Shown here one piece after another: positions 1-31,914 of a DNA stretch of 32,036 nt. This stretch comes from a virus. The notes beneath the pieces are model-generated. The model was given only the letters and a program-made list of their open reading frames with translations. It searched no databases and was not told where the DNA came from. Location: IMG/VR virus record IMGVR_UViG_3300044952_001282, positions 1 to 32,036 of that record; one strand, 5' to 3'. Positions within the stretch are counted from its first letter, which is position 1; each line of letters begins with the position of its first letter. Position numbers and translations under genes: made by a program.

Positions 1-130
1 TTAAGCATGGCTGACTCCTTAAAGCCGTGCATGATGCCCGCGAAAAGCACAGACGCAACCGGGCGCAGGGTGACGCTAAAAGAAAAACTGATTAATTCTG
101 ATTAAGATTGATTAAGAGTTAATCAAAGGT
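1..130. repeat. Left copy of direct terminal repeat
   Basis: Positions 1-126 are identical to 31907-32032. Position 127 is A here and T at 32033, and 128-130 agree again. The simplest reading is that the contig closes into a circle of about 31,906 bp and the overlap is an assembly or sampling overlap; a true packaged terminal redundancy is the alternative. The repeat holds the first codons of the portal gene (minus strand, ATG at 8-6) with its AAGGAG site at 15-20, and the heptad array of the early control region. Confidence 0.9.
89..125. promoter_or_regulatory. Four TGATTAA heptads phased at 10 bp
   Basis: TGATTAA starts at 89, 99 and 109, and its reverse complement TTAATCA starts at 119, giving exact 10-bp spacing on one face of the helix. 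Short phased repeats of this kind are typical binding arrays for ribbon-helix-helix repressors, and two such proteins are encoded just downstream. The array lies between the divergent portal gene and the early operon, so it could control both. The same heptad with the same period recurs before parB. Binding by the ribbon-helix-helix proteins is inferred. Confidence 0.75.
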
Positions 131-11498: not shown

Positions 11499-11957
11499 AT
11501 GAGCCACGCCCCCTCGCCAGTTCCGAGAAATTTAGACCATCTCAAGCAGTACCAGGTCAAACCCGGGCAGGTCCTGAACCCCAAAGGCATCCGAGGAAAC
11601 GGACGCGCCCTGGCCCTAGCCACCCTCGACGGGATACTTGCCACGGCCGACAACAAGCGCAAGCTGAAGAAGTCGTTCCAGGAGCGCTTCGACAAGAATC
11701 CGGCCTTGTTCTTCCTCACCTTCATCGTTCCCTTGCTCCCGAAGGAAGCGAAATTGACGCTCGAACCCGGATCCGGAGGTATGCAGTGGGCTTCACTCTT
11801 GACTACGTTCCCCACGAATCCCAAAGACGTGTCCACCACGCTAGAGGCTACCGCTTCCGAAGCGTCTGCTGCGGGCGACGCTTCGGGAAAACCCTACTCG
11901 GAGCCGCCGAGCTTATCGATTGCGCCGCGCAACGTCCCGGCGAATATGGCTGGATAG
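11499..11957 (+). CDS. Small terminase-like protein (DUF5681-like)
   Basis: This 152-residue protein lies immediately before the large terminase. The N-terminus has a KPGQVLNPKGIRGNG motif like DUF5681 proteins, then helices and FDKNPALFFLTFIVPLLPKEA, which resembles the conserved core found upstream of many large terminases. It is probably the DNA-recognition subunit that directs packaging. The final 57 codons overlap the large terminase frame by 172 nt and read as low-complexity Ser/Ala/Pro sequence, so the functional part probably ends near residue 95. No strong ribosome-binding site is visible. Confidence 0.65.
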   Translation: MSHAPSPVPRNLDHLKQYQVKPGQVLNPKGIRGNGRALALATLDGILATADNKRKLKKSFQERFDKNPALFFLTFIVPLLPKEAKLTLEPGSGGMQWASLLTTFPTNPKDVSTTLEATASEASAAGDASGKPYSEPPSLSIAPRNVPANMAG

Positions 11958-13072
11958 CGCCGCGCTACCTGACGGCCTCCCGCGGAGCCGAGGCGCTCAA
12001 GACCATCGCCGGCGACCTGGTGAAACTCAAAGGCGACTCCCCCCAGGTCGCAGACTTCAACGGGCCGAACGGTCCGGCCCGGATCTGGTTTCTCTCGGCC
12101 GATCATCCCGACTCAATTCCCTCGTTCGGTTTCCTCGGCCTGGTCCTGGACGAGGCAGCCCAGATCCCGGGAAAAGTCTGGAATCAGCAGATCCGCCCGA
12201 CCCTGATAACCGGCGGCAATATGGGATGGTCGATCCATATTTCAACTCCGAGGTCGAAGAACTGGTTTTATGACAACTGGACCCGAGGTGTAAAGAACCC
12301 GGATCCCGGAACGTCAGGCGAATACGCCTCATTCCAATACCGGTCGATCGACAACCCGTATTTCCCGAAGGAGGAATGGGAATCGGCTCGGCAAAATATG
12401 CCGGCCGACATCTTCCGTCAGGAGTACGAAGCCGACTTCCTGGACGACGGCGCCGGAGTGTTCAGCGGCGTCGATCAGATTTTAACAGCCGACACGAAAG
12501 CGCCCTCCGGGCGCATCCTTGTTGGTTTAGACCTGGCGAAACATACCGACTTCACGCGCCTGATCGCGCTCGACGCGCGATCGGGCGCTTGTGTCGATCG
12601 CGCCGGCTGGAATCAGTTGAACTGGCCTATCCAGATCGAACGAATTGTCCGCTTCGTTCGCAAGCATAAAGCCGTTCTCGTAATGGACTCGACGGGTATC
12701 GGTGACGTCGTTTATGACTCTCTCGTTTCTCAGCTCTCCGAGATCGTTCCGATTCACCTTACATCGGCGTCCAAGACTGACTTGATTCAGCGTCTTCAGG
12801 TTTCGATTGAGCAGCGCGATATTTCAATGCCGCGTGACTGGTCCGACGTCGTTGACGAGTTGAACCGCTTCGAATGGTCGATTACTGAAAAGGGAACGCT
12901 CACCTACTCCGCGCCGGACGGTTTCCACGATGACTGGGTAATTGCCCTCGCGCTGGCTTCGTATAAGCGCCGTGACTTTTCCCAGCCACCGACCAGGCCT
13001 CTCTGGGTTCCGTTCTCGGGTGTTCGTCAGTCCGGTTTTGCGGTGCCCCGTTTGGGCCGTTCGCTTCGATGA
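11786..13072 (+). CDS. terL: Terminase large subunit
   Basis: This is the packaging motor and headful or end-cutting nuclease, 428 residues from GTG at 11786. GGAGG at 11775-11779 gives correct spacing. The open frame runs back to 11462, but that part is antisense-like and overlaps the small terminase. Motifs: Walker A CGRRFGKT (29-36), Walker B LVLDEA (119-124) and coupling motif ISTP (152-155). A RuvC-like nuclease follows with Asp249 (GLDLAKHTD), Asp301 (VMDSTG) and Asp382/Asp383 (FHDDW). Both active sites look complete. The family is the Terminase_6/Gp17 type. It acts with the portal encoded at the far end of the minus-strand late operon. Confidence 0.92.
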   Translation: MGFTLDYVPHESQRRVHHARGYRFRSVCCGRRFGKTLLGAAELIDCAAQRPGEYGWIAPRYLTASRGAEALKTIAGDLVKLKGDSPQVADFNGPNGPARIWFLSADHPDSIPSFGFLGLVLDEAAQIPGKVWNQQIRPTLITGGNMGWSIHISTPRSKNWFYDNWTRGVKNPDPGTSGEYASFQYRSIDNPYFPKEEWESARQNMPADIFRQEYEADFLDDGAGVFSGVDQILTADTKAPSGRILVGLDLAKHTDFTRLIALDARSGACVDRAGWNQLNWPIQIERIVRFVRKHKAVLVMDSTGIGDVVYDSLVSQLSEIVPIHLTSASKTDLIQRLQVSIEQRDISMPRDWSDVVDELNRFEWSITEKGTLTYSAPDGFHDDWVIALALASYKRRDFSQPPTRPLWVPFSGVRQSGFAVPRLGRSLR

Positions 13073-18136: not shown

Positions 18137-18151
18137 CCAACCCGAACCCCC

Positions 18152-18211: not shown

Positions 18212-18436
18212 ATGAACCAACCCACCACCCGAGCCGCCCGCGCCCTCCTGGACTCGATCCGGACCGGCCAGAGCAGCACCCAGACCCGCCCCACGACCCC
18301 GAGCGCCCGCCGCAAGCCCCGCACGGTCCGAATGACCCCCGCCGCCCTCGCGGCCCTCCTGTCCCCCCTGGCTGGCCAAAAAAAATCGCCGGACAGCCCC
18401 GGTGCGGGCTGTCCGGTGTCATCCAAGACCCTCTGA
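18212..18436 (+). CDS. Small basic hypothetical protein
   Basis: This 74-residue frame has GGAG 9 nt before its ATG and C-rich third positions like its neighbours. The first 55 residues are basic and Thr/Ala/Arg-rich (TRAARALLDSIRTGQSS, then RRKPRTVRMTPAALAALL). The last part is encoded by a minus-strand terminator hairpin, so the natural protein may tolerate an arbitrary tail. It lies after the parB terminator and before convergent late transcription. It is a plausible but unproven gene. Confidence 0.4.
   Translation: MNQPTTRAARALLDSIRTGQSSTQTRPTTPSARRKPRTVRMTPAALAALLSPLAGQKKSPDSPGAGCPVSSKTL
18378..18416 (-). terminator. Second terminator of the late operon
   Basis: CCGGACAGCCC / GGGCTGTCCGG (18389-18399, 18406-18416) has eight A on its left (18378-18385), so on the minus strand the stem is followed (after CGA) by eight T. 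It backs up the terminator at 18585-18620. Confidence 0.85.
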
Positions 18437-18637: not shown

Positions 18638-19324
18638 CTACTTGACCGCCACCTTGGGCTGGCCGCCGCCCTCGACATGGTTCGAGATGTTCGTCGCCCC
18701 CTCGGCCACCACTGACCGCCAGGGCAAGACCGACTGGTGAACCGTGACCGAGGAGCCCGGGGGAACGTCCCGGACCACCACGCACCCGACCGGAAACCCC
18801 GCCAGGACCGCCGCCAAGGCGCCGGCCACGGCCGCCTTGACGGCGACGGAACCCTTGCGGCGCCAGGCCCACCAGCCGCCCAGGATCAGCCCGAGCCGGA
18901 CAGAGCCCGCCTTGAACCGCCCGCAGGGCCGGATCGGGTCAACCCTGGCCATCGTCCGCAAAAGCCGGTCCAGGTCCCAGCGGGACATCGGAACGAACCG
19001 GAAATACTTCTCCCCGGCCGGGCGGATCCGCAACCCGCGATCCCGATAGCCCCCGTCATGAAAAAAGGCACCCAGGAACCGGAAGGGACTCAGCCACCGG
19101 TGAGAGAAGATAGGGGAGGACATCCCATCCGTCAGCATCATGGCCGGAGGCCGGATAACAGTCCCGTCCTCCTGGACGAACTGCAGCGGATGAGACTCGA
19201 TCAACCCGAACAGCCAAACCTCCTGCGTCCCGCCCCACCACCGCGGCTTGTGATCCTGGAGCGTGAGCCGATAGCCGTCGTTCTCCCGCCAATTCTCGAA
19301 CCGTCCCGTGAGATCCGGATTCAT
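18638..19324 (-). CDS. DUF1353-family protein with C-terminal membrane/lipobox-like segment
   Basis: This 228-residue protein is the last of the late operon. The DUF1353 core is recognisable: MLTDGMSSPIFS (about 63-74), then FRFLGAFFHDGGY with a His-Asp pair at 89-90, then helices DLDRLLRTM. DUF1353 proteins are common in phage tail and lysis regions and may be hydrolases, but no activity is established. After the core, residues about 155-190 form a hydrophobic stretch ending VLAGFPVGC, similar to a lipobox, with a soluble tail rich in Ser/Val. The start overlaps the previous stop by 4 nt. Confidence 0.75.
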   Translation of the reverse strand: MNPDLTGRFENWRENDGYRLTLQDHKPRWWGGTQEVWLFGLIESHPLQFVQEDGTVIRPPAMMLTDGMSSPIFSHRWLSPFRFLGAFFHDGGYRDRGLRIRPAGEKYFRFVPMSRWDLDRLLRTMARVDPIRPCGRFKAGSVRLGLILGGWWAWRRKGSVAVKAAVAGALAAVLAGFPVGCVVVRDVPPGSSVTVHQSVLPWRSVVAEGATNISNHVEGGGQPKVAVK

Positions 19325-19653
19325 TCGCCACCCCGCAGCCTGGCCGTGACCGCCCCGAGCAGCTCCGCGGCCGGCTCATCCCCGCGCGCCGTGAGAACCG
19401 ACCGAATCACCTCGATCACCGTGACCACCACGGCCGTCGTTCCGGCGTTCATGATCGCCTGGCGCCGCGGGCTCTGCGACTCCGCCAGGAGGCAGACCAG
19501 CAGCCGGAGCGACAGCTTGACGCCCTTCCGGATCCACGCATGGTCCGCACAGGTCCCGAGCGGGGATTCAGTGTCCAGGTGATCGGCCGTCTCCTGGGCC
19601 TCGGACGCCCACCGCTTTACAGCCTCGTTCTCGATCGTTTCCCTCAAGCCCAT
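19321..19653 (-). CDS. Small membrane-associated hypothetical protein
   Basis: This 110-residue protein begins at the ATG at 19653, with GGGAGGG upstream. The open frame extends to 19893 but that lies in the next gene. It has a soluble acidic N-terminus, an amphipathic helix (GVKLSLRLLVCLLAESQS) and one hydrophobic segment (AGTTAVVVTVIEVIRSVL). A holin-like role is conceivable from position near the end of the late operon, but one weak membrane segment is not enough to call it. It overlaps the DUF1353 gene by 4 nt. Confidence 0.55.
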   Translation of the reverse strand: MGLRETIENEAVKRWASEAQETADHLDTESPLGTCADHAWIRKGVKLSLRLLVCLLAESQSPRRQAIMNAGTTAVVVTVIEVIRSVLTARGDEPAAELLGAVTARLRGGE

Positions 19654-19667
19654 AGCCCCGCCCTCCC

Positions 19668-20744
19668 TTATGGCGCCGCGATCGCGGCATAGTACAGCCC
19701 ATCCCTCCGGACAGTCACCAACCCTATCCGGCCGTCTGCCAGGAGGCACACCGCCGGAAAGGCCCCCACAGCCACCTGGACCGGCTTCGCCCGTCCCGCC
19801 AGACAATCCTTGACCCGGACCGCCAGAACGGCCCCACCGAACGCCCAGACGGCCACAGGCCCGCCTGGGACCTTGAGCAGCCGAGGAGGACAACGATCCT
19901 CAAGCGTCCCGGGCCCCAGGTCCCCGAGATTCGTAATCGGATACCGGCAGACCCCATTCTTAACCACCTGCAGCCGGACCCGGCCGCCCATCGTCGCCGC
20001 GACGTACCCGACCTGACCGACCACGCAGAGGGAGACATAGCAGAGGTCCGAGCCGTACCACCGGCCATAAACCCCGTAATCAGCCCACACGATCCGGCGC
20101 CCACCGATCGACACCGAGGACGGATCCACCCGACAGCCGTTGATCGCGGTCCACCAGGTGGACCCGGACACCTGAAAAGCATACTTTTCCCCAGTCCCCC
20201 CCGAGTTGAACCAGCCCGAGGCCGCCGTGCCGGCGGCCCTGGTCAGCTCCCACCAGTTCCCATCCTTCGAAAGCAGCACCGGACCGGCCCGCGCCGGATC
20301 CCGCGCCAAGCGCGCGGCGCCAGGGTAAGCCTTGCTCCCAAGAAACCGAGTCGACACGACCCCGCTCGGGCTCCTGACGGCCACCACCGGCCCGTGCATC
20401 GTTCCCCACTCTTTCGGACCGGCCCGAGCCGACACGAACGCCCATCCGTCCGGATCCACCACCAGGTCGGGAACGTAAACCCGGCCGGCGTCGACAAAGC
20501 CGCCCCGCTTCGACGCCAGGACAACCCCACCGGACCACGCCGCGCCGGCGCCGGACTTGAACAGGTGAACGGATCCCATCCGATCCCCCTCGGCAGCCAC
20601 GAACACCGAACCGTCAGGGCCCTGCGCGATCGCCGGGCGCGCGAATGCGCCGCCGGCGATCATCCCAGCAGCCGGGACCTGGGCGCCCACCAAGCGGGCC
20701 CCGACCAACAACACGAACACCAGCAACCTGAAAACCATCTTCAT
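19668..20744 (-). CDS. Secreted beta-propeller-like protein
   Basis: This 358-residue protein starts at the ATG at 20744, 4 nt after GGAGG. The upstream extension of the frame to 20918 has no ribosome-binding site. Residues 1-21 form a Sec signal (MKMVFRLLVFVLLVGARLVGA, cleaved before Gln). The mature part has recurring strand motifs of the BNR/sialidase kind (PDGSVFVAAE, PDGWAFVSAR, SKDGNWWELT, ADGRIGLVTV). This suggests a beta-propeller that binds or modifies surface glycans. It could be a virion spike or an exported lysogenic protein. No catalytic residues can be assigned. Confidence 0.6.
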   Translation of the reverse strand: MKMVFRLLVFVLLVGARLVGAQVPAAGMIAGGAFARPAIAQGPDGSVFVAAEGDRMGSVHLFKSGAGAAWSGGVVLASKRGGFVDAGRVYVPDLVVDPDGWAFVSARAGPKEWGTMHGPVVAVRSPSGVVSTRFLGSKAYPGAARLARDPARAGPVLLSKDGNWWELTRAAGTAASGWFNSGGTGEKYAFQVSGSTWWTAINGCRVDPSSVSIGGRRIVWADYGVYGRWYGSDLCYVSLCVVGQVGYVAATMGGRVRLQVVKNGVCRYPITNLGDLGPGTLEDRCPPRLLKVPGGPVAVWAFGGAVLAVRVKDCLAGRAKPVQVAVGAFPAVCLLADGRIGLVTVRRDGLYYAAIAAP

Positions 20745-20819
20745 ACCGCCTCCTTTAAAACAGGAGCTACCGCAATTAAGACCGGACGCCGTAGGTACAG
20801 CGGCGCCAGGGCCCACGAC

Positions 20820-20850
20820 AAAACCGACCGACGCACCCACGCCGGTCGGT
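20820..20850 (-). terminator. Terminator after the LamG-like gene
   Basis: ACCGACCG / CGGTCGGT (20823-20830, 20843-20850), with A's to the left, gives TTTT after the stem on the minus strand. It lies 28 bp beyond the stop of the 20879 gene and upstream of the beta-propeller gene, so the latter may have its own promoter or depend on read-through. Confidence 0.7.
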
Positions 20851-20878
20851 CCAACCGCTATCTGTTTCGCTCCACACA

Positions 20879-21601
20879 TCACGGGTAGTAAATCCTTCGG
20901 GCCTGCCACTCGGCCCACATGCGATACACGTCATCGGGCTGAATTTCGCGGATGGCGATAAAAGGCTTGAAGTATGCAACCTGGGCTTTTGAATTAACCG
21001 TAAACCCGTTGCAGAAACTGAACCGACAGACGCCGTCCGGACTCCATACGCGAGCCGTGTTTTTTGTTGACGATTTCTGAGCTATTAAAACCCCGTTCCG
21101 CCACATCTTCCATTGTCCATTCGTGACCCCAGCGTCATAAGCGAAGACGAAATGCGTCCACTGATTTGAGAAGGAGTTGCTATGAAGAATACTCGCGCCT
21201 TCTGAGTAATCTGAAACTCCCTCCGTAACCAAAAAAGCAGGCGACATCTCCTCAAACCAGTTTGTCGTTGATGCCGTGCGATAGTTCGAGGTGGTAATCG
21301 AATAATCGGGATTTGGAATCGCCAGTCCATACGGAACCTTGACCGATCCGACCACGTCAGTTCGCAACACAACCTCAAACCCCGCCACACGGCAGGCGAT
21401 CCCCGGCCTGAACGACAACTCGGCCCACTGGCCGGTCGAACAGATCATCCCGCCGACCGCCTTCCAGTCAGACGAGCCCGCGAGCCGCCCGTCGATGGTG
21501 TTGACGACCTTGCCGACGCGGCCGCTCACTTCCATCTTGGGAGTAGGAGCAGAAGCGAACGCCGCCGAGGCCGCCAGGATCAGAACAAGTTTCAGCGCCA
21601 T
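20879..21601 (-). CDS. Secreted LamG/concanavalin-like domain protein
   Basis: This 240-residue protein starts at the ATG at 21601 with GGAGG 4-5 nt upstream, overlapping the end of the fibre gene by 10 nt. The signal peptide MALKLVLILAASAAFASA is followed by a jelly-roll domain. The stretch NQWTHFVFAYDAGVTNGQWK and then WRNGVLIAQKSS is characteristic of LamG domains (a Trp-His-x-Ala strand, then a modelled ligand strand). Such domains bind carbohydrate, so a host-surface adhesin role is likely. The coding sequence is visibly more AT-rich than its neighbours, suggesting more recent acquisition. Confidence 0.65.
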   Translation of the reverse strand: MALKLVLILAASAAFASAPTPKMEVSGRVGKVVNTIDGRLAGSSDWKAVGGMICSTGQWAELSFRPGIACRVAGFEVVLRTDVVGSVKVPYGLAIPNPDYSITTSNYRTASTTNWFEEMSPAFLVTEGVSDYSEGASILHSNSFSNQWTHFVFAYDAGVTNGQWKMWRNGVLIAQKSSTKNTARVWSPDGVCRFSFCNGFTVNSKAQVAYFKPFIAIREIQPDDVYRMWAEWQARRIYYP

Positions 21602-23925
21602 ACGACCTCCAGTTTCGGGAGAGCCGTGAACCCGCTCGTTCCGTCGCCGGTGACCGGCACATCCGCAAACCACGAGCCGGATCCAGCCGTGTTCGTCCAC
21701 ACGACAGTCTGGACGGTCCCGGTCGCCGCCGCCGTGAGGGTATTCGTCTGTCCAGCCTGCCAAGAGGGCCACACGCTCACGGAGTTCGCCGTATTGCCGA
21801 CCCACCAGCTGGCCCGGACAATCGCCTCCGTGGCGGCCAGCGCCGCACCAGGAGCCGCCACGGTCATTCTAACCCGCTGCTGGACATTCGACGGGCCGAA
21901 CACCACACCCCACGGGGAGCCCGCCAGCATCACGGGAGCCGAGAGCGGGAGGCACGCGGCGCCGGACGTGTAGACGCCGGACACCTCGCACCAGTCGGGC
22001 GAGGCCGCCCACAACCCGAAGTTCGTAGAAGCAGCGGCCCCGCCGACTGAACCCAAGTTGATAAACCCGTACTGATCGACGTGATTCGACACGTTGTTCA
22101 GTATAACGACCAGGTTCGAATGGTTATTAATCGCCGTGATCGAATTCGACAAAGCCGAGGCCGCAACCCCCTGGGCCAGGGCCAGCGCAGTTTCCAGCGC
22201 CCCGACTTCGACCGTGAGGTCCGCGGGCCACTCGAACCGCGTATCGTTGTTGAAATTGATCCCGCCGACCACCTGCAGCCCGACGGCGGTAGGCGTCGCG
22301 GGATAGGTCAGCGCTTCGCAGTACAAGGCATTATCCTGGGCCGTGAAGTGACCGCCATAGAAAAACGCCGAGCCCTTGACCCCATAGGTGTCAGTGGCCA
22401 CGCCGCGGACACCGATCGAGTAGGCCGTGCCGAGCACGCCCTGGGATTCATCGGCCATGCCCCAGACCCCAGTATCCACCGTGGCGTGGCCCTTGATCGC
22501 AACCCGAGACTCGGCCTTAGCCACGATCACCGTTCCGTACTCGGACACGCCAAGCGTGCCGCCCTCAGTCGGTTCCCGCCCGATCGACACGACCAGGTTC
22601 GTTCCAATATAAGTCGAACCGCGTTCGCAAGTTTCTTGAAGGTTAGTCGGGTAGCGGCCAAGAATCGAACTCATTGACTCTTCCCCGACCCATAACCCGC
22701 CGAGCCCACCTGCCGGATTGATATTGAACGATCCGGGACCGTGACTGCCGTACTGGCCTTCGGGATGCATCCCGCCAGGATCACTGCCACCCTGCCAGGC
22801 GAATGCTGAAGCGTTGGAGGCTGTAGCACCATATCCAGCCGTAAAACTGCTATCACCGGCAGCCAAAGTCCCAAATCCAGAGGCGAACGAATAGTCGCCG
22901 GCAGCAGTCACCACATAGCCAAAAGCGTAACTATGCTGGCCTGAAGCATCCGAGCCCTCACCGGCCTGAACGCGAGGGCCAAGAAGAACCAAAGAACCAC
23001 CATACACATTGGTCCGGAAGTGGTTCACATCAACAGCAACACCACCAAGAGACACAGAAGACTCTGTCTCGCTACCACGCTGAACAACATCATTCAGGGT
23101 GTCATTCTCAGCCTGGAGCGCCGAAGCAATCAATCCGCCATGAGCGACCGCATCAGCATCATGAGCCCCCACAACTTCGCCAGCAACAACGGTCGCAAGC
23201 GAGGTCGAATCCGAAGCCGAAATCAACCCGAGGTCATTCGAGAACCCCGACACATACCGCAGCGCCGGAGCCAGCGACCGCGCCGACACGGCGCCGGTCG
23301 CCAAGTGATTCGAGCCGACCGACGAGGACACGTTCCGCACGAAGCCGGTTGCACCGATCCCCTGAAGCGAGACCGCGTCAATGTTCGTGATCGTCGTTCC
23401 GTCAGGCAGAACCACGTTGCCGCCACCACCGAGCCAGCCGGACTTGACCCACCCGGCCGAAGCCGTGCCAGCCCAGAACAGCACCAGCAGCCCCAGGACG
23501 GCCGGCAGGGCCCGTCCGCCGGCCACGGGCACCGGAACCTGGTACGTCGGCTTGACGGCCTCAGCGGCCCCGCTCTCGGTCCTGTAGTGGCCGTAAGCGA
23601 TTTGACGGACAAACAGATCCGCGCGCGTCATCATCTGATTGGCCTCCGAGGTGACATCAATTCCCATCTCCATAGCGAGCCCACCGTAAACCAGGGTCTC
23701 AGCCGCCTGGACGGCGGAAACCGGAATCGCATCGGGATCCGGGTCCAACACATTCACGGGACGCGAGGAAATCGCATCGCGGACCCTGGCCACCGTCTCA
23801 GCCGTTACCTGGGCGAGCCGCCCGGCCTTGTCGGGGTGGTCGATGATCCAGGTATTGTACAGCGCCAGCAAGTCGGTCGGAAAATCGAGCAGCAGTCGCT
23901 CGGCGTTGAGAGTGGTCCATTCCAT
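21592..23925 (-). CDS. Connector-like domain fused to YadA-like fibre
   Basis: This 777-residue protein starts at the ATG at 23925, 6 nt after AAGGAG (another ATG at 23931 abuts that site). Residues 1-125 are helical and resemble a head-completion/connector protein (NAERLLLDFPTDLLALY, RLAQVTAETVARVRDA). Residues 139-157 (ALPAVLGLLVLFWAGTASA) look exactly like a signal peptide, but lie inside the chain. Beyond this is a fibre: YadA-head-type repeats (QHSYAFGYVVTAAGDYSFAS, GDSSFTAGYGATA), then GVWG/GVRG/GVKG repeats near 480-530, and a beta-rich C-terminus. GTG134 (23526) could start a separate exported fibre, but without a clear ribosome-binding site. Confidence 0.7.
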   Translation of the reverse strand: MEWTTLNAERLLLDFPTDLLALYNTWIIDHPDKAGRLAQVTAETVARVRDAISSRPVNVLDPDPDAIPVSAVQAAETLVYGGLAMEMGIDVTSEANQMMTRADLFVRQIAYGHYRTESGAAEAVKPTYQVPVPVAGGRALPAVLGLLVLFWAGTASAGWVKSGWLGGGGNVVLPDGTTITNIDAVSLQGIGATGFVRNVSSSVGSNHLATGAVSARSLAPALRYVSGFSNDLGLISASDSTSLATVVAGEVVGAHDADAVAHGGLIASALQAENDTLNDVVQRGSETESSVSLGGVAVDVNHFRTNVYGGSLVLLGPRVQAGEGSDASGQHSYAFGYVVTAAGDYSFASGFGTLAAGDSSFTAGYGATASNASAFAWQGGSDPGGMHPEGQYGSHGPGSFNINPAGGLGGLWVGEESMSSILGRYPTNLQETCERGSTYIGTNLVVSIGREPTEGGTLGVSEYGTVIVAKAESRVAIKGHATVDTGVWGMADESQGVLGTAYSIGVRGVATDTYGVKGSAFFYGGHFTAQDNALYCEALTYPATPTAVGLQVVGGINFNNDTRFEWPADLTVEVGALETALALAQGVAASALSNSITAINNHSNLVVILNNVSNHVDQYGFINLGSVGGAAASTNFGLWAASPDWCEVSGVYTSGAACLPLSAPVMLAGSPWGVVFGPSNVQQRVRMTVAAPGAALAATEAIVRASWWVGNTANSVSVWPSWQAGQTNTLTAAATGTVQTVVWTNTAGSGSWFADVPVTGDGTSGFTALPKLEVVWR

Positions 23926-23944
23926 TTTCATCTCCTTGGAAAAC

Positions 23945-23968
23945 AAAAAGGCCCGACCCTCGCGGGCC
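23945..23968 (-). terminator. Terminator-like hairpin between two late genes
   Basis: GGCCCG / CGGGCC (23950-23955, 23963-23968) with a run of A at 23945-23949 reads on the minus strand as a 6-bp stem followed by five T. It would attenuate transcription from the 23992 gene into the fibre gene. Confidence 0.6.
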
Positions 23969-23991
23969 GGGCCTAGCCGGGAGTTGTCGCT

Positions 23992-24390
23992 TTATCGCTG
24001 CACTTCGGATTCGACGCGGAAGGTGTAACCGGTACTGAGAGACGAAGAGAACACCAGCCAGTCCCCAGGATACAGATAGCCCGCCGTGAACGTCGCGGTG
24101 TTACCAGTCAACAGGGTGCCGGTCGCAACCGAGCCGACAGACTGGGTGATCGCGCCGCCGGCATCAACCCGCGTAACCGTGACCACGTTGTTCGTCGCGG
24201 CCGAGCCATAGACCCAGATCCGCTTCAGCTCCAGCGGCTCATAGGTCCGCGAGTTCGTGTAAACCCCGGAGCCGGAATTCAGGACCGCGGTGCCATCGGC
24301 CCGCGTATAAATGCCCTGCGCCTGCACCGTGGGAACCAGCACCGCGAGGACGGCGAGAATCGCCGCGACCGTCAGAATCTTCTTGAACAT
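23992..24390 (-). CDS. Small secreted beta-rich protein
   Basis: This 132-residue protein has a textbook Sec signal: MFKK, a hydrophobic core and VPTVQA before Gln25. GGAGG lies 7 nt before the ATG. The mature part is rich in Thr, Val and Gly with alternating strand patterns (NNVVTVTRVDAGGAITQSVG). It follows the major capsid gene directly, where a head-completion or tail gene would normally lie. It may coat the particle from the periplasmic side or act as a surface spike. No family is recognised. Confidence 0.65.
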   Translation of the reverse strand: MFKKILTVAAILAVLAVLVPTVQAQGIYTRADGTAVLNSGSGVYTNSRTYEPLELKRIWVYGSAATNNVVTVTRVDAGGAITQSVGSVATGTLLTGNTATFTAGYLYPGDWLVFSSSLSTGYTFRVESEVQR

Positions 24391-24448: not shown

Positions 24449-25396
24449 TTAGGCGATCGCCGTCGCGTTGGTGACGGTGAACAGCTTCGCCGCCGCGCTA
24501 TTCGCGATCTGGACGTCCTCGGACCAATCCATCTTCGCCACTTCCTGGCGAGCGTCCGGGGACTGATACATCCCGGGAACCATCCACCGGCCGCGCAGGC
24601 GAAAGGTCTTCATGAACGAGGGGTCCCGCCGCGTGGGCCGGTCGGACGCCAGAAACACCAGGACCTGCTTGTCGAGCAGGAACGCGTAATTCGCCGTCAC
24701 GCCCTGGGGCGTGGAATCGTGCGCCGTCATGCAGGTCTTGATCTCGGGCCGGGCGAACAGCATATCCGAGGTGAGCTGCTCGGTCGGAAGGGCCAGCCCG
24801 ACCGCCGCACCGCGCCCGCCGGAAACGATGATGTTCTTGCGGATGTTCGGGTGGTTGATCCAGGTCAGCCAGGCACCGGCGCCGAACACGACGCGGACCG
24901 ACAGATTCCCGCCGAACCCGCTCGCCTTGATGAGCGCGGCGATCTTCGCGTCCAGGAAAGCCTTGGGATCGAAGTCGCCAGCCCACGCGATGTCGGTGTT
25001 CGTCAGCCCGGAAAGGGCCAGGTCGATCACCTTTTTCTCATGGGACAGGGCGGCCACCGCCGAAATCTCATCGGCGGCATCCTTCAGTTCCGCCTGGGCG
25101 TCCTCGGCCGACCCGGCCGAGACGTCCACCGGGGCGTCCAGGGCGTTCGGCGTGCAGTTGAACGTGCCGTCCTCGCGGGTGAACACGAGCTGCACCGCGG
25201 CGCCGCCGACGGCCCGCTCGGTGTTCGGGATCGAGAAGCGGTGCTTCTCGGTGAACTTCTTGAACCGCCCGGTCGCGGCGCTGACCTCGACCGAGGGGCT
25301 GATGAACTGAGCGAGCTTGCTCACGGAATCGCGGGCGCGGCCCTGGGCGTATTCCTTGAGCAGGGGATTCGAACTTGCCTGGGAGAGAAACGACAT
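24449..25396 (-). CDS. Major capsid protein
   Basis: This 315-residue protein has AAAGGA 7 nt before its ATG. It forms the icosahedral head shell. It lies after the decoration-type gene and before the putative connector, as in Mu-related head modules. The N-terminal arm (SFLSQASSNPLLKEYAQGRA), a strand-rich section, and a central P-domain-like part with a long helix (AEDAQAELKDAADEISAVAA) fit an HK97-fold capsid protein of the Mu gpT or related type. The C-terminal half holds the motifs NIIVSGG and FLLDKQVLVFLASD. Identification rests mainly on length, position and fold-like features. Confidence 0.75.
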   Translation of the reverse strand: MSFLSQASSNPLLKEYAQGRARDSVSKLAQFISPSVEVSAATGRFKKFTEKHRFSIPNTERAVGGAAVQLVFTREDGTFNCTPNALDAPVDVSAGSAEDAQAELKDAADEISAVAALSHEKKVIDLALSGLTNTDIAWAGDFDPKAFLDAKIAALIKASGFGGNLSVRVVFGAGAWLTWINHPNIRKNIIVSGGRGAAVGLALPTEQLTSDMLFARPEIKTCMTAHDSTPQGVTANYAFLLDKQVLVFLASDRPTRRDPSFMKTFRLRGRWMVPGMYQSPDARQEVAKMDWSEDVQIANSAAAKLFTVTNATAIA

Positions 25397-25420: not shown

Positions 25421-25837
25421 TTACGCCACGATCCGGGTGAACTGGCAGGGACGGACGCGGGCCACCTGGCCCGACACGAAGTTTTCAAGGGCCACGGCCT
25501 TGACGTGATAGGTCGCGTTCGCGGTCGCCCGCGAGGCGAGGCGCCCGTAGGCGGACGCCGTGAGGACCAGCTCGTCGCCGGCGGAGCCCGTGCCGTACAT
25601 CGTAACGCGGACTTCGCGATCGGGATTCATCGGAATCACCGAGCAGCGGGTGGTGGAGAGAACGTCGTCGCAGACGCCCTCGACGTTGTCCGTCAAGGCA
25701 CCCGGAAGACTCACGGCCGTCAGGGGCCCGTCCACGCCGGAAACCTTCACCAGGAGATTGGCCGCGACATTCGAGTTCGCGGCGGTTGCGCGGACCGCCG
25801 GCCCGCTCACGCATCCGACATTACTTTTCGTGGACAT
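25421..25837 (-). CDS. Head decoration protein (DUF2190-like)
   Basis: This 138-residue protein is placed directly before the major capsid gene, with AAAGGG before the ATG. It is beta-rich, with few helices and repeated small-residue strands (AANLLVKVSGVDGPLTAVSL, ELVLTASAYGRLASRATANA), as in DUF2190 and other capsid-cement proteins that stabilise the shell from outside. Length and position match. The sequence pattern alone does not prove the family. Confidence 0.6.
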   Translation of the reverse strand: MSTKSNVGCVSGPAVRATAANSNVAANLLVKVSGVDGPLTAVSLPGALTDNVEGVCDDVLSTTRCSVIPMNPDREVRVTMYGTGSAGDELVLTASAYGRLASRATANATYHVKAVALENFVSGQVARVRPCQFTRIVA

Positions 25838-25864: not shown

Positions 25865-26440
25865 TTACGCCAGTTCGCGTTCGGCGCTCTCGAACGCTTC
25901 GCGCCAGGGAGCACCCTTCGCGGCGAGTTCGTTCGCCCGGTTGCGGATCTTCGCGATCTTCGGATCGCTGGCCCCGACCATCACCGCGGGCGGAACGGCC
26001 ATCGCCCGGTTGAGAAGGGGAGTTGCTCCCGGCGCCGGGGGAACCAGACCCGACCCGGGAGCGCGGTCCGCGCCGGAAGCAGGAGCCGGCTTGAACATGT
26101 TTTCCAGGATCCCGACGGCGGCGGCGCGGTTGCGCACGAGCGCCTCGGTCCAGAACGGAAGATCGGCTTCGGGAATCCGGTCCTTGAACCGGTCCAGCTC
26201 GCGGTTGACAACGGCCTCCTCGGCCTTGACCGTTTCATCGAGCACGGTTTCGAGCTTCGCCTGCAAATTGGCGACGACGCCAGCCAGGGCGTTGATGACG
26301 TCCTGGTCGGTGGCCGTCTCGGGGAGACCCAGGATCTTGCGAAGTTCGGCGGGGGCGGGAATCTCGCTGGCGGAAGAAGCGGCGCCAGGCGCGGGAGGCG
26401 CGGCGGTCTCAGTCGGAGGCTTTACGGTTTCATCGGCCAT
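25865..26440 (-). CDS. Scaffold-like protein
   Basis: This 191-residue protein starts at the ATG at 26440. It begins with a Pro/Ala/Thr-rich stretch. A helical region follows (LRKILGLPETATDQDVINAL, then LQAKLETVLDETVKAEEAVV) that resembles the C-terminal scaffold part of Mu gpI-type proteins and separate scaffold genes. It is followed by a second Pro-rich linker and a C-terminal helical segment. It would guide capsid assembly and be removed by the upstream-encoded protease. It lies between the SNase-domain protein and the decoration gene. Confidence 0.65.
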   Translation of the reverse strand: MADETVKPPTETAAPPAPGAASSASEIPAPAELRKILGLPETATDQDVINALAGVVANLQAKLETVLDETVKAEEAVVNRELDRFKDRIPEADLPFWTEALVRNRAAAVGILENMFKPAPASGADRAPGSGLVPPAPGATPLLNRAMAVPPAVMVGASDPKIAKIRNRANELAAKGAPWREAFESAERELA

Positions 26441-26535: not shown

Positions 26536-28668
26536 TTACCGCCGAAGCGCTTTCAGACTCGCTCCGAAGCCCGCGAGCGCCGCAGGCGGCTCGCCGGCTT
26601 CGCGAGTATCAGCCACAGAACCGGAGCCCGTTCCGCTTTTCTTCACGGCGCGAGGCATCTTGAACTCGATCGAATCAGAATACCGAACGCCGCCCTCGGC
26701 GTGCTGCGCGGCGCCGAGCGCGGCCAGCGCGGCGTTCCAGGTGACGGCCGCGCCTCCAGGCAAAAGCCCGGTCCGACCCGTGTACATGAGCGAGGAACCG
26801 GCCGCCGTGGAGATCCGCTCAAGTGCGGTCTTTTCCTTTTTCGCGTACTCGGGAACTTTGAACGGCTTCACCTTGGTCAAATCGGTTGTCTCCCGTTCCG
26901 GTCCGAACATCCCGACGCCGGACGCCTGGGCCCGCCCCGCAGCCTGGTCATAGTCGAACTTGCGGAACGGATCATTCTCGGCGAGCATCCGGTACTGGCC
27001 CGGCTGGGTGGCGCCCTGCTCGATCATCACCTGTCCAACGTCACGCCCCTTGAACGGATCCAGAGCTGGAGAAACCGACCAGATCGCCCGCTGGATAAAG
27101 TTCGCGGGGATCTCGACGTTGCCGAGGTCCCGCCCATACTTCTCGGTGAGCTGCTCTGGATCCCGCAGAACCTTGATCGGCGTCCCGGCTGGAACCAGTT
27201 TCGCAAGCGCCGCCTTCGACTCCGCGCCCCAGAACTCAGCCGCGGCCTTGCCGTGTTCAGGGTGCGCGATCTCAGGAGCATTCGAATCTGAAAACCGAAC
27301 CGACTTCTCGCCCCCCTTGCCATCCGGAACCGTCAGAGTGTCACCGTCCAGGACCGACCCGACCCGCGCCGTGTAATCGTCCATCTGGATCCGCTCGCGG
27401 GCCTCGCTGGCCTTCCACCGCGTGAACGACGCACCGGCCGCCGTAATCAAGTCGATCGACCGGCCCGCCATGTTCCGAGGGAGCCGGTCTGAAACCTCCG
27501 CCTGGGCCTCGGTCGCATCAGCGGGCGACATCTCACCGGCAGCCAGTTTCTCAGCAACAACCCGCTCCATGGCCCGGACCGCCCCGCGCGCGGCCAGCGG
27601 CATTGTCCAGGAGCCGTCATTGTAATACCGGGTCAACTTCTCGATCGGATTGCCGAGCGTGCCGACCGCTCCCATGCCGAGCAACTTCCCAGGCGAATCA
27701 AACACGTCCTCAGTCCCGGGAATCACATACGACTCACCCCGCGAGAACGCCTCATAGGCGTCCTGCTCGTGGCGGGCGACCTCGGCCTGCTCGGTCTTAT
27801 GGACGCCGGCGGCCAGGGACGCCGAAAGGCGCCCGGCCGACGTCGCGAGGCCCGCGGAAATATCCGCGCCCGTGTAGCCCGCGAGCTGGGTGTATTCATC
27901 GTAGGCCGGTCCCAAATAAGTCTTAGCGCCGGATTTCACAGAGCCGAGCAATTTCTTTAGCGGCTCCCATCTTTCAATCGAATCCAACTCGGCTTGAATC
28001 ATGTCCCGCGAAGCAGAAGACGAAGCGGCTTGCAGTTCAGCCCCTTCCAACGCAATCTTTTTGTACTTCGCCATTCGAAGCGCTTTTTTGATCGCGGTAA
28101 CAGCGTCTCCTGCGAGCGATTGCCCAGCCCTCAGAACACCATACGACCCAAGCACCTCAAGAGCCCGCTGGAGTAACGCCAGGTCATGATCGTTCCGCTC
28201 GGAAAAGTCATTCGCATCCCGAACCGAATCCACCACAGCAGCCCCGCCGAAACCTGCGACGGCCTTCGCCAGCGCGGCGGCCAGGACCTTGCGAGCTGAT
28301 TCCTTGGCGGCGGCAGCCGCGGGAGCGGCCGCGCCGCCGGTCAACAACAAAGGCGCCGCCAGCAGCGCATCCTCAAGCCCATTCATGGCCCCCTGGAGAA
28401 GCAACCGGCCAGGCGAATCCCCGGACCGGGTGTTTCGCCCCACAAGCCGAGAGGGACCGGACAGAAACTGGTCGAACACTTCGCCAGGTGACAACCGCGA
28501 ACCGTCAGCCCGAGTGCCGACAATCTTGTCCCCGAGCCGCTCAAGGGAAGACTTCTCGGTCCAGGAGCCGGAAGCCCCAGCGCCGCGGAACCGGCCGCCA
28601 GAGGCGCCGGATCCGCCGCGCAGCTTCGCCATCACGGCCTTGCGCTGTGCATCAGATCGAAAAGGCAT
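26536..28668 (-). CDS. Large virion-associated protein with SNase-like nuclease domain
   Basis: This 710-residue protein starts at an ATG after AAGGGGG. The N-terminus carries the motif SDAQRKAVMAKLRGG, also seen in the neighbouring protease fusion. A long Ala-rich helical region (about 60-420) with hydrophobic stretches follows, and then a staphylococcal-nuclease domain (about 430-530). In that domain, VLDGDT (441-444) is the metal loop, Arg458 and Glu466 lie in VRFSDSNAPE, and Arg513 in KYGR. The residue equivalent to SNase Asp40 is Asn. The C-terminal 180 residues are unassigned. It may be an internal or ejection protein that trims DNA on entry. That role is inferred. Confidence 0.7.
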   Translation of the reverse strand: MPFRSDAQRKAVMAKLRGGSGASGGRFRGAGASGSWTEKSSLERLGDKIVGTRADGSRLSPGEVFDQFLSGPSRLVGRNTRSGDSPGRLLLQGAMNGLEDALLAAPLLLTGGAAAPAAAAAKESARKVLAAALAKAVAGFGGAAVVDSVRDANDFSERNDHDLALLQRALEVLGSYGVLRAGQSLAGDAVTAIKKALRMAKYKKIALEGAELQAASSSASRDMIQAELDSIERWEPLKKLLGSVKSGAKTYLGPAYDEYTQLAGYTGADISAGLATSAGRLSASLAAGVHKTEQAEVARHEQDAYEAFSRGESYVIPGTEDVFDSPGKLLGMGAVGTLGNPIEKLTRYYNDGSWTMPLAARGAVRAMERVVAEKLAAGEMSPADATEAQAEVSDRLPRNMAGRSIDLITAAGASFTRWKASEARERIQMDDYTARVGSVLDGDTLTVPDGKGGEKSVRFSDSNAPEIAHPEHGKAAAEFWGAESKAALAKLVPAGTPIKVLRDPEQLTEKYGRDLGNVEIPANFIQRAIWSVSPALDPFKGRDVGQVMIEQGATQPGQYRMLAENDPFRKFDYDQAAGRAQASGVGMFGPERETTDLTKVKPFKVPEYAKKEKTALERISTAAGSSLMYTGRTGLLPGGAAVTWNAALAALGAAQHAEGGVRYSDSIEFKMPRAVKKSGTGSGSVADTREAGEPPAALAGFGASLKALRR

Positions 28669-28677: not shown

Positions 28678-30747
28678 TTATTTCGGGCTCATGGTTTTAA
28701 GAGACTTCACGGCAGACGCCAGCTTTTTCGGATCCTTAGGAAGCGCCTCGATCGCGGCGGCCACGACCTCGGGATCCATCGTCGGATAAATCGCCCGAGC
28801 CGCATCCAGATCACCGTTTTGAATCGCGGTCCAGAACCGATCCCGGATCTTCAGTTCGTCCGCGTAAGCCTTCGCCTGGCCAGCCGAACTCTCGGACGCC
28901 TTACGCGTGGCCGTCGCCTTCTCGGCGGCGATCCGGGTCTTTTCAGCCGCCGCGCGATCGCGGGCGGCCTGCTTATCGACTTCGAGCTGAGCCTTGATGT
29001 CCGCTTTCCGCTTCGCTTCCGCCGTTTTTTCCTCGGCGGTCTTGGCTTTGGCGTCTCCCTTAGCGGTTTCCTCGTTCGACTTCGCCGCAATCTCAAGGAT
29101 ATCGCCCTCCAAGCCGGCGATCTTCTTCAGGTCCCGAGCGTTCTGGCGCTGCCAGAGCCCCGTTTCCTCGGAAAACTTCTTCTTCGCGTCAAAGATCTGG
29201 TCCTGGACCAGCATTTCCGCCTTGAGCCTGTTCCCTCCGGTCGCCTTGAGAGCCGATTTGTACATATCGGCCATCTGGCGCTTGGCAACGTCATTCGCCT
29301 GGCGAGCAGCATCCAGAGCCTTTTGACGCTGCATGGGGGGCATACGCTCCCCGACCAGCTTCGCCTCCAGCGCCTTGAGATTCTGGATTACGGGCGTGTC
29401 CAAGACCGGAGCGGCCGGCATGGCACCCCGAATCCCGTCAATTTCCGCCTGCTTCGCCTTCGTCCGGGTCTCAGCGTCGAACGTGAGAGGGCGCGGAGCC
29501 GCCTGGAAAGGCCCCTGCGCGGCCTCAGGAGCCGCCGGAGCGGCCGGAGCCACCGTGATAGGGCCGGAAGCCGCCACGGCCTCAGGCGAAGCCGCCGGGG
29601 GCGCGCTGGGCGGCCCAGAAGGACCGCCAGCGGCGCCTGAAGCGAGCGGCGCCCCCGAGGGAGCGCCGCCGCCGGAGCCAAGACGGGCAAACATGGCGCG
29701 GCGCTGCTCCTCGGACATGGCCCGATTGAGCAGCCGCTGGAAAATCCGGTTCCCGATCAGCTTCTTGATCGAGGGCGACGTGAACCGCTTCTCACTCCAC
29801 CCCGCGGGCCCCACGGGCACCGCGGCCCCGATAGGGAGCACAGCCCGCTGGCCAGCCGGGGCCCCGGCAGGCCCCACAGGAACCGCCGGACCGATCGGCA
29901 AGACCGCCCGCTGACCGGCGGGCGCCCCGGCCGGACCCACCGGCTGAATCGGCCCGATCGGCGAAAGGGCCCGGGAGATACCGTCCTGCAGGCGCCGAAT
30001 AAAGTTCTCAGACGGAGGAACCAGGTCCGACGCCGAAACCGGCTGAATCGGCGCGGCCTGACCGGCGCGCCGAGGCTGATTCTCGCTGGGCTTGGTGATC
30101 CGGCCAGGTACGGCAGGCTCGCGGAACGGAAGATCAGCGACCGCGACATCCGGCCTCGCGGTATCACCGCCAGGACCACCAACGGGCCCGCCTCCAGGTC
30201 CCGCAGCCCGCTTCGCGAACATCGCTTTGCGCTGAGAATCCGACATCGGCCCGCGATTGCAGATCGGCTTCATGGCCGAAATGTTCGGCTTGTTCGTCAG
30301 TCCGCCACCAGACAGCCGCAGCGGCCGGATCCGATCCGGACCAAGGCTCTCACAATCAGCCGGAAGCCAGGTCGGGGAGAGGAACCGGAACTCACCGCCC
30401 TGAATAGCAGCAAGCCCTTTGTCGGTCCACCGGATCAACCCGAGCACGTCGTCACCCTCGCGCCGGAGCTGCTGAAGCCACCCAGCCGCAGTCGACGGCT
30501 TATCCGTGTCCTCGCTGAAATGATCGAAGTCAATCAACAGCCCAGGAAACGAGTCGCCGGCGGCGCTGGCGGCCGCAGCGAACTCGTTGACGAGGGAATC
30601 CAAAGCCTGATCGTCCAGGACCTGCACCAGGCGCCGAACGGTCGAAACCCCGCCAGGCCCCATGCAGGGATGATTTACCGGGAACTCGCCCTTCGGGCAA
30701 ATGTGAACCCAGCCGGACGGATCAATTTCAAACAGGGAAGCATTCAT
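28678..30747 (-). CDS. Mu I-like capsid maturation protease fused to long internal region
   Basis: This 689-residue protein starts at the ATG at 30747, 7 nt after GAGGT (a GTG at 30756 is possible). Residues 1-165 match Mu I-like proteases: GWVHICPKGEFPV, LLIDFDHFSEDTDKPSTAAG and GGEFRFLSPTWLP. The rest is not typical of the family: SDSQRKAMFAKR (from 168), Pro/Gly-rich linkers with a 21-residue tandem repeat, SEEQRRAMFARLGSGGG (from 344), and a long charged coiled coil (about 500-640). It probably matures the head and supplies an internal or scaffold component. The separate scaffold gene downstream makes the extra coiled coil unusual. Confidence 0.78.
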   Translation of the reverse strand: MNASLFEIDPSGWVHICPKGEFPVNHPCMGPGGVSTVRRLVQVLDDQALDSLVNEFAAAASAAGDSFPGLLIDFDHFSEDTDKPSTAAGWLQQLRREGDDVLGLIRWTDKGLAAIQGGEFRFLSPTWLPADCESLGPDRIRPLRLSGGGLTNKPNISAMKPICNRGPMSDSQRKAMFAKRAAGPGGGPVGGPGGDTARPDVAVADLPFREPAVPGRITKPSENQPRRAGQAAPIQPVSASDLVPPSENFIRRLQDGISRALSPIGPIQPVGPAGAPAGQRAVLPIGPAVPVGPAGAPAGQRAVLPIGAAVPVGPAGWSEKRFTSPSIKKLIGNRIFQRLLNRAMSEEQRRAMFARLGSGGGAPSGAPLASGAAGGPSGPPSAPPAASPEAVAASGPITVAPAAPAAPEAAQGPFQAAPRPLTFDAETRTKAKQAEIDGIRGAMPAAPVLDTPVIQNLKALEAKLVGERMPPMQRQKALDAARQANDVAKRQMADMYKSALKATGGNRLKAEMLVQDQIFDAKKKFSEETGLWQRQNARDLKKIAGLEGDILEIAAKSNEETAKGDAKAKTAEEKTAEAKRKADIKAQLEVDKQAARDRAAAEKTRIAAEKATATRKASESSAGQAKAYADELKIRDRFWTAIQNGDLDAARAIYPTMDPEVVAAAIEALPKDPKKLASAVKSLKTMSPK
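29812..29937 (-). repeat. Two tandem 63-bp repeats in the protease fusion gene
   Basis: Two 21-residue units (GPAGAPAGQRAVLPIG followed by P/A-AVPV) encode a flexible linker. They differ by one residue while synonymous positions vary, so they are not a very recent duplication. Confidence 0.8.
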
Positions 30748-30762: not shown

Positions 30763-31914
30763 TTAAGCGGGCGGATTGAGAGGATTCAACTTCATGCCGG
30801 TCTGTTCTTCGAGCCAAGCCTGATCCGGAGCGAAGCCGGCCCAGCTCAGATTCGCGACCTGCTCAAGAAGCGCCCCGACATCGGTAGGCTTGGGTATCTC
30901 GAACTCGAAATAGGCGTAGTGCGGCTGGCCAGGAAAAAACCGATCCAGCGCGACCTTGTCCACGTCGCGCTGAAGGCACTCGGAAAGCAGCGCCGCATCG
31001 CCCGCCGCCAAACGAAGGAGCGTATCGGCATGAGCGCCGCCCGCGAGCGTGCCGGATCCGGACTGGGACAACATCGTGAGCAGCCCACCGGTGGCGGCCA
31101 TCACAATTTGCTGGTCACAATAATCAGTCCGCTCCTTGAACGGCATCCGCCCGCGCTGGCCTGTCGGATCAACCGTGGAAACCACCGTGCCATGCGGAAG
31201 CACGCCGCGCCCGTTCGAAGCGATCCCGTTCGCGATCGCCTGAAGGTCGGTTTTCTCCTCGGCGGTAGCTCCGTCGCGAGCCGTGAAGAAAATACTGGGA
31301 TTGGCCGACACGGCGAGAGCCGCGTCCCAATCCGCGCCGCAGAGAAGTTTCCAGTACACTTGCCGACCGATCGAAAGAAACAGCGGGGGCTCACTCTTGA
31401 AAATCACAAGCCGCTCGCGCGGGACTTTCTCGGGCATCCCGCAGTGGGAGAGGGCCCGCTCGTTGAACATCAGTTCGCGGGTTACGGGATCCCGAGTCCA
31501 AAACCAGGGCTCGATATAATCGAGTGTCCAAACATCCTGAAGCCCAGGCGTCGCGTTTTTCTCGCAAACCGCGAATCCGTAAAACAGTCCCATCGCCAAA
31601 TCCTTAACGGCAGATTTAAAATTGGAACAAGCCTCATAGACCGACCGAAGCACCTGGGCCTGCTCGGCGGCAAGCGGATCCTGAGCCTTGTCCTCGCGGA
31701 GCTTGATCTGATACTGAAGCCCGTTCAGCGTCGAAAGCCGGTTGAAGATCGCCGAGCCGACCGTAACATCCACCCGCGCCGCGTGACGCCAAAACCAGGT
31801 GAGTTCTGCAAAGTCGCCGCGGTCCGCCATCGCCTCCCATTCGACGATCGTTCCAATCGTGAGGCCCGGCAGCGGATTATAATATTCCCGGAACGCGATA
31901 TCGGTTTTAAGCAT
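30763..31914 (-). CDS. Portal protein, Mu gp29/DUF935-like
   Basis: This 383-residue protein is the first gene of the minus-strand late operon. It starts at the ATG at 31914, 6 nt after AAGGAG. An in-frame upstream ATG at 31956 lacks a ribosome-binding site. Features shared with DUF935 portals are the N-terminal DVTVGSAIFNRLSTLNGLQY, FKSAVKDLAMGLFYGFAVCE, GLQDVWTLDYIEPWFW, and the C-terminal SGSGTLAGGAHADTLLRLAA. It forms the DNA-entry ring and would dock the terminase. The family usually exceeds 450 residues, so this is a short version. Its first codons are duplicated in the left terminal repeat (positions 8-1). Confidence 0.85.
   Translation of the reverse strand: MLKTDIAFREYYNPLPGLTIGTIVEWEAMADRGDFAELTWFWRHAARVDVTVGSAIFNRLSTLNGLQYQIKLREDKAQDPLAAEQAQVLRSVYEACSNFKSAVKDLAMGLFYGFAVCEKNATPGLQDVWTLDYIEPWFWTRDPVTRELMFNERALSHCGMPEKVPRERLVIFKSEPPLFLSIGRQVYWKLLCGADWDAALAVSANPSIFFTARDGATAEEKTDLQAIANGIASNGRGVLPHGTVVSTVDPTGQRGRMPFKERTDYCDQQIVMAATGGLLTMLSQSGSGTLAGGAHADTLLRLAAGDAALLSECLQRDVDKVALDRFFPGQPHYAYFEFEIPKPTDVGALLEQVANLSWAGFAPDQAWLEEQTGMKLNPLNPPA

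Follow-up and report, generated by a model that had tools for sequence, protein, structure and literature searches.

The window, that is, the whole stretch of DNA that was analysed, is the 32,036-base virus record IMGVR_UViG_3300044952_001282, and its features are collected in Table 1. The 126 bp at its left end are exactly repeated near its right end, where after a single mismatch the match continues for three more bases, and the repeat is intergenic, between the start codon of the portal gene and the first plus-strand gene, as expected for a circular molecule. This end repeat supports the closure of the genome asserted in an earlier note on this DNA, and with a closed genome the absence of a gene becomes readable. 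The Mu-type portal, the protease and the capsid protein named in that note are all present, each matched by a PHROG head family (phrog_113, phrog_328 and phrog_1005 respectively), the capsid being of the HK97-fold type, and the minus-strand late genes of 18638-24390 were located where it had put them. The 710 aa protein with an SNase-like domain belongs to a family found in eight records, hence in some relatives only, and is possibly an internal virion protein.

Table 1. Features of the 32,036-base window, with their coordinates, strand and basis of assignment.
Feature	Coordinates	Strand	Basis or remark
Terminal direct repeat	1..126	.	other copy 31907-32032
Tyrosine integrase	9859..11118	-	PF00589 2.5e-14
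Terminase large subunit (TerL)	11786..13072	+	PF03237 8e-11, PF17289 5e-6; phrog_2 2.9e-42
228 aa protein	18638..19324	-	hydrophobic stretch in C-terminal third; translation only
110 aa protein, partly hydrophobic	19321..19653	-	translation only
Exported 358 aa protein	19668..20744	-	signal peptide; no family match
Exported LamG-like protein	20879..21601	-	signal peptide; Laminin_G_3 E 0.0034, below cut-off
Adaptor-fibre fusion, 777 aa	21592..23925	-	longer TTG call = 784 aa
Fibre part of fusion	21592..23451	-	repetitive sequence, no family match
Internal hydrophobic segment of fusion	23452..23511	-	signal-peptidase-like site between ASA and GW; KD 1.81 over 19 residues
N-terminal domain of fusion, Mu gp36-type head-tail adaptor	23506..23925	-	family profiles and predicted fold
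Strong terminator-like hairpin	23949..23974	-	11-bp stem, 9 GC pairs, TTTTGTTTT
132 aa exported jelly-roll protein, possibly decoration/turret-like	23992..24390	-	signal peptide MFKKILTVAAILAVLAVLVPTVQA
Major capsid protein	24449..25396	-	phrog_1005 E 4.8e-20; 47% identical to L002 copy
Small head decoration-like protein	25421..25837	-	adjoins capsid gene; family in nearly all relatives
Scaffold-like protein	25865..26440	-	head protease families matched weakly, in their C-terminal part; syntenic in relatives
710 aa protein, SNase-like domain	26536..28668	-	phrog_452 E 2e-6 at 418-521
Head maturation protease	28678..30747	-	phrog_328 E 5.8e-16; long low-complexity C-terminal part
Portal, 383 aa, Mu-type	30763..31914	-	phrog_113 E 1.6e-25

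Single-sequence scans of IMG/VR with the capsid and with the portal, and tblastn of the capsid and fusion proteins against phage records, returned no relative. With two- and four-row capsid and portal alignments, ten IMG/VR records were recovered; a portal scan yielded three loci in one Lentisphaerae genome and one in a Verrucomicrobia genome, and capsid relatives were found in 36 of the 387 genomes searched of the Verrucomicrobiota/Lentisphaerae phylum, many of the relatives' genomes being annotated with our own gene caller. The relatives are of two kinds. Nine are tailed (the Mu-like phage of G003, and G012, G015, G050b, G079, G180, G197, G221 and G318), with tube-like and additional neck genes and, in most cases, a tape-measure gene. 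Tail-less records number 26, the window counted, while three loci with a capsid gene followed by cargo (G096, G151 and G271) were left out of both classes. Common to the 26 records, whose sources are IMG/VR and genomes of Verrucomicrobiota/Lentisphaerae, are TerL, portal, protease, decoration protein, capsid and adaptor; directly after the adaptor come genes that are small or fibre-like, or that encode XhlA-like membrane proteins, C92 peptidase or lipoproteins, and an integrase is present where the record reaches it, several being cut by contig ends. The comparison for conserved order proposed with the original claim gave TerL-portal-protease-decoration-capsid-adaptor, then small, fibre or lysis-like genes and an integrase, in G005, G006, G009 and G092a/c/d. 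The only genes after the adaptor in G009-G011 encode an 83 aa membrane protein and 122 aa and 198 aa lipoprotein-like products, with neither a fibre gene nor a member of the 132 aa family. The relatives are about 20 kb in size and the window 32 kb; besides the lysis-like genes (XhlA-like membrane protein, C92 peptidase, lipoprotein), relatives hold replication genes and, between their structural genes, toxin-antitoxin-like, HipA-like and methylase-like cargo.

Four tail-less elements lie in cellular surroundings in one nearly complete chromosome (G092, a 3.88 Mb contig); in three of them the integrase adjoins a tRNA gene, and none of the four has a tail gene. A search for attachment-site repeats beside the tRNA genes in G092, G284 and G150 detected none, and the left borders of the elements are therefore not fixed. 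Tailed relatives co-reside with tail-less elements in G050 and G150, and in G003 the Mu-like tailed phage is inserted within a tail-less element. In the portal tree all 24 tail-less rows fall on one side of a branch with an SH-aLRT of 99 and a bootstrap of 35, which makes a single origin of the tail-less clade plausible, though not secure.

Comparison of the late proteins of the window with family profiles, including PHROGs, matched no tail family. Profiles were also derived from the neck and tail genes of the nine tailed relatives (two stopper, two tube, five tape measure, gpF, gpG, two distal and a hub), where "stopper" and "tube" are labels given by position and size, five such proteins tried in Pfam having no match. 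These profiles do match the tailed relatives and gave 0 matches in the 26 tail-less records, window included, although a strongly diverged stopper could escape them. When 116 proteins of tail-less elements were compared with PHROGs, the best 25 of 73 families comprised no tube, tape measure, baseplate or HNH family; fibre-type tail families were present among them, the tail-type matches being traced to proteins of 162 aa (G092) and 508 aa (G008), and excisionase-type regulators were matched by two proteins. Two tailed relatives put through the same comparison, with 27 proteins, yielded four tape-measure families along with several tail families. No nozzle was recognised among the matches to tail-less elements, adaptor and fibre being present. 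By these profile comparisons tail genes are truly absent, clade-wide, and the absence is meaningful because the relatives share it: the window does lack tape measure, tube, sheath and baseplate genes, as had been claimed, it lacks a recognisable stopper as well, and the absence runs through all 26 records.

The head end of the connection is altered too. Portals measure 350-401 aa in the tail-less elements versus 509-553 aa in six tailed relatives, those of the window and the other tail-less records being without the roughly 130 C-terminal residues of the tailed portals, and the C-terminal extension and motif of the tailed relatives' adaptors is missing across the tail-less clade. In phage JBD30 the adaptor C-terminus lies along the portal, wedged between its subunits, while the tail-binding surface is the stopper (PMC11445458). 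The contact seen in JBD30 implies that portal and adaptor changed together, so the tail-less clade would, by analogy, have remodelled its portal-adaptor contact, with no recognisable stopper beyond it. A reading of the C-terminal motif of tailed adaptors as a tail-docking site was dropped, since the JBD30 structure puts this C-terminus along the portal.

The fusion of connector, signal and fibre described earlier proved to be real. Members of the adaptor family match PF07030 and phrog_195, and the AlphaFold model of residues 1-140 of the 777 aa protein (pLDDT 90) is closest to the Mu neck (Z 10.0), the JBD30 connector (Z 8.7) and P74-26 (8.0), followed by Sf6 gp7, HK97 gp6 and P22 gp4. By profile and predicted fold, the N-terminal domain is thus a gp36-type head-tail adaptor. 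Structure-based searching, by which tail proteins might have come to light, recovered this adaptor fold and no tail fold in the two proteins modelled. The hydrophobic stretch follows the 140-residue domain and is internal (residues 139-158, ending in ...RALPAVLGLLVLFWAGTASA before GW), with a candidate signal-peptidase-like cleavage site between ASA and GW. Adaptor, hydrophobic segment and fibre are united in a single gene in the window, G050a and G106, three elements in which the protein runs from ...RALP through the hydrophobic stretch and GW(V/I) into the fibre. In G001a and G024 the adaptor and the fibre have a gene each; the G001a adaptor ends in ...ERALS-stop and the fibre gene, with its own signal peptide, overlaps it by four bases, and in L002 the fibre counterpart is encoded separately, after the adaptor, as an exported protein with a signal peptide of its own. 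In the portal tree G106 and G050a pair, and the unfused G024 is closer to them than the window is, by a moderately supported fork (86/79); as the unfused G024 groups with the two fused elements, more than one fusion event is likely. Such repeated fusion suggests that adaptor and fibre function together, although neighbouring genes could also become fused through loss of a stop codon, with no functional significance. Union in one polypeptide would put the fibre at the portal vertex. Three options had been offered for the particle, namely completion at or beyond the inner membrane, a very short tail with exported spikes, and a capsid-bearing element spread by another route; considering these, a fibre coupled to the adaptor is, from the fusion, the most likely here.

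Signal peptides, called by a home-made rule and not by SignalP, are good and N-terminal in the 132 aa, LamG-like and 358 aa proteins, the corresponding segment of the 777 aa protein being internal. Secretion of the 132-residue protein is accordingly predicted, as the earlier note had it. Its secreted LamG protein and secreted beta-propeller keep their signal peptides, but the LamG identity is not sustained by so weak a match, nor the propeller, the 358 aa protein having no family match; the membrane protein placed at the end of the operon was not recovered as such, the last two proteins being hydrophobic only in part.

The 132 aa protein is modelled as a jelly roll (AlphaFold pLDDT 83), with the HFTV1 turret (Foldseek 1.9e-4; VIA Z 9.3) and a Helicobacter phage cement protein (Z 8.7) among its matches. 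Nucleoplasmin-type folds match the model better (Z 9.5-11), so the jelly-roll matches are unspecific and a decoration or turret-like role is a suggestion only. A strong terminator hairpin separates the capsid cluster from the adaptor-fibre gene, which would place the 132 aa gene in the capsid expression unit, and such a placement fits a high-copy decoration protein; hairpins also lie just 5' of the adaptor gene in G005, G092b, G092d, G236, G106 and G284 and in the tailed G012 and G180. An exported homologue of the 132 aa protein directly follows the capsid gene in the tailed G015, G079, G050b and G003, and the family occurs in the tail-less G004-G007, G041, G150, G236 and G284. This small protein or fibre-like proteins are exported by the tailed G012, G015, G050b, G079 and G180 and by the Mu-like phage of G003, while in the tail-less G092a-d the small protein and fibre-like homologues are without signal peptides, no in-frame extension of the small protein being able to add one. 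Since tailed relatives export too, and G092a-d lack the signals and G009-G011 the genes, export and taillessness are separate traits. Export would hence be a trait of the phages of these hosts and no substitute for a tail, which leaves without support, in the form given, the earlier suggestion that export of the distal products explains the missing tail.

The reading that we prefer, with a probability of about 0.45, is that of a temperate element akin to the Mu-headed phages, which has no tail, or at most a minimal neck, and whose exported fibre is coupled to the adaptor ring. The element would belong to a temperate, tail-less clade related to the Mu-headed siphophages of Verrucomicrobia-related bacteria; its own terminase would package its own DNA into its own Mu-type head, which a gp36-type adaptor ring would cap with nothing recognisable beyond, and the adaptor-hydrophobic segment-fibre polypeptide would place at the portal vertex a fibre that may stand in for the tail in attachment. 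The jelly-roll, LamG-like and other exported proteins would decorate the particle or the cell surface, the particles would be infectious without a helper, and the hydrophobic segment suggests that assembly may be completed at the inner membrane. The closed genome, the tail families absent from 26 records, the conserved head-adaptor order, the adaptor identity, the recurrent fusion and the joint shortening of portal and adaptor all speak for such self-containment, and the lysis-like and replication genes of the relatives argue for autonomy. Against it, no entry or DNA-ejection apparatus was recognised, attachment is left unexplained in G009-G011, and a highly diverged tail component could evade the profiles, the fibre and several distal proteins having no recognised fold. 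An extension of the preferred reading, which we consider doubtful, would make the adaptor ring itself a membrane protein: twelve fused subunits with Sec-threaded fibres, whose cytoplasmic adaptors cap the portal, would finish the particle across the inner membrane with its spikes outside, and the hydrophobic segments would aid genome entry. If true, this would be a tail-less HK97-fold virus with a membrane-built vertex.

Described tail-free elements with capsid and adaptor are, however, satellites, which use borrowed tails or travel on a helper, and a capsid-forming satellite that fills its own heads and takes tails from a helper phage like cf-PICIs, with the exported proteins as accessories, is a serious but less probable explanation. 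The gene set is that given for cf-PICIs (capsid, protease, portal, connector and terminases, no tail; quoted in PMC10690885), and MiniFlayer is a precedent for a satellite with its own fibre. The size of the relatives, their four copies in one genome, the cargo amid structural genes, the lack of an attachment gene in G009-G011 and the tailed phages residing in G050, G150 and inside the G003 element would suit a satellite. Unlike a described cf-PICI-type element, which carries a closure (stopper) gene (PMC13230959), the present ones yielded no stopper or closure gene, and they have lysis-like genes that a satellite does not need; the hydrophobic segment and fibre would also make the window adaptor an awkward surface for a borrowed tail. 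Moreover, the G092 chromosome gave no match to a related helper in the four families searched (Mu gp36, HK97 portal, HK97 capsid and minor-tail family), the minor-tail search (PF10145) being insensitive, as it gave no match even in G050, a genome with a tailed relative.

That the particle does not infect by itself, whether as lysis-released heads with DNA spread otherwise (gene-transfer-like, by vesicles or by competence) or as a decaying lineage, would accord with the lack of a recognised entry apparatus, the broken capsid gene of G001b and the truncated portal of L005. We regard it as unlikely, because reading frames intact over wide divergence and four copies in one genome argue for selection on the whole module and because TerL and integrase are retained. 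Several distal proteins without a family match, and an adaptor fold that also resembles those of the podovirus adaptors P22 gp4 and Sf6 gp7, could point to a short-tailed phage of the ordinary kind, with a nozzle and other tail proteins diverged beyond recognition; with so few genes after the adaptor in G009-G011, and a small protein that has a jelly roll and neither a tube nor a nozzle fold, this is quite improbable.

To our knowledge, bacterial HK97-fold viruses are taken to need tails for entry, the known exceptions borrowing those of a helper. Here, a whole clade, found in a few percent of the genomes sampled from a single phylum, has head, packaging and adaptor genes and no tail, many of its members also having lysis-like genes, so that either tail-less entry exists in the HK97-fold realm or the phylum harbours a large unrecognised family of tail-stealing satellites; the adaptor-fibre fusion is a defined molecule for testing DNA delivery by tail-less particles. 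Tail-less capsid-bearing elements as a kind are already known, and what is new is the Mu-type head, the clade-wide spread, the lost portal and adaptor ends and the adaptor-fibre fusion. In a literature search that was not exhaustive, no description of such elements in the Verrucomicrobia-related phylum was found, and the family seems undescribed in the literature searched.

With Mu-type siphophages (Pseudomonas phage JBD30, Casadabanvirus; Rhodobacter RcapMu) the window shares the types and order of portal, protease, capsid and adaptor. It differs in lacking stopper, tail and baseplate and, by comparison with the tailed relatives, the portal C-terminus and adaptor extension, in the fusion of its adaptor to an exported fibre and in having a tyrosine integrase. 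The cf-PICIs likewise have complete head and packaging genes with a connector and no tail, and the integrase of the window's relatives adjoins tRNA genes; the capsid of the window is nevertheless of a different type, without a match to PF05065, the type used for the cf-PICI capsid phylogeny, and PF05065 capsids sought in ten host genomes gave no match. No closure gene was found, and the lysis-like genes of relatives, the exported surface proteins and a size of up to 32 kb are further differences. The MiniFlayer and MulchRoom satellites of Streptomyces phages also combine TerL, portal, scaffold, capsid and head-tail adaptor with no tail, and MiniFlayer has its own tail fibre; their hosts differ, their helper is known, and the accessible portion of their description mentions no adaptor-fibre fusion or export. 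A gene transfer agent would package random host DNA and have no self-mobility genes; the window has integrase and TerL. The tail-less marine Charybdis elements were set aside as a match, being without portal, terminase and HK97 capsid. By portal, the closest isolated phage is Akkermansia phage DTMo-2021a (24% identity), which, unlike the window, has more neck- and tail-type genes after the capsid and, by eye, a tape-measure-like protein.

The 51 kb IMG/VR contig of G003 (L021-L023) carries a Mu-like tailed phage at 1142-35416. On either side of it lie the two parts of a tail-less element's scaffold gene, at 35472-35750 and 627-947; the phage appears to have integrated into this gene.

Four tail-less elements were found in G092 contig 1 (L074-L081), a nearly complete chromosome, and in three of the four the integrase adjoins a tRNA gene (Val, Pro and Val respectively). 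The copy at locus L004 appears to be in decay, since its capsid gene is broken across two frames (17497-18435) and its adaptor gene is truncated; the genome carrying it holds a second, intact copy of the element elsewhere.

Cargo was observed in the gaps among the TerL, portal, protease and scaffold genes at five loci (L003, L004, L011, L012 and L015), where types resembling toxin-antitoxin pairs, a HipA-like protein, methylases and an ATPase were identified by eye. The gaps between the structural genes behave as if they were cargo hot spots. L064, L065 and L066 (from G096, G151 and G271) form a third capsid group, whose members encode a portal and a protease; no adaptor was found in these three loci, and large cargo lies downstream of their capsid gene.

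Features of the window and cargo regions at two related loci
Feature	Location	Remark
GC-rich stretch	window 7803-9858	no convincing gene
29-bp tandem repeat	window 8436-8540	within GC-rich stretch 7803-9858
GC-rich stretch	window 13073-14237	no convincing gene
ParB-type protein	window 16448-18133	ParB_N 4e-24
Cargo region	L003 15655-18349	identified by eye
Cargo region	L004 15729-16345	identified by eye

Directly upstream of the adaptor gene, a terminator-like hairpin (window 23949-23974) recurs in both tailed and tail-less relatives and perhaps sets the ratio of capsid to neck protein. The window genome also combines its ParB-type protein with an integrase.
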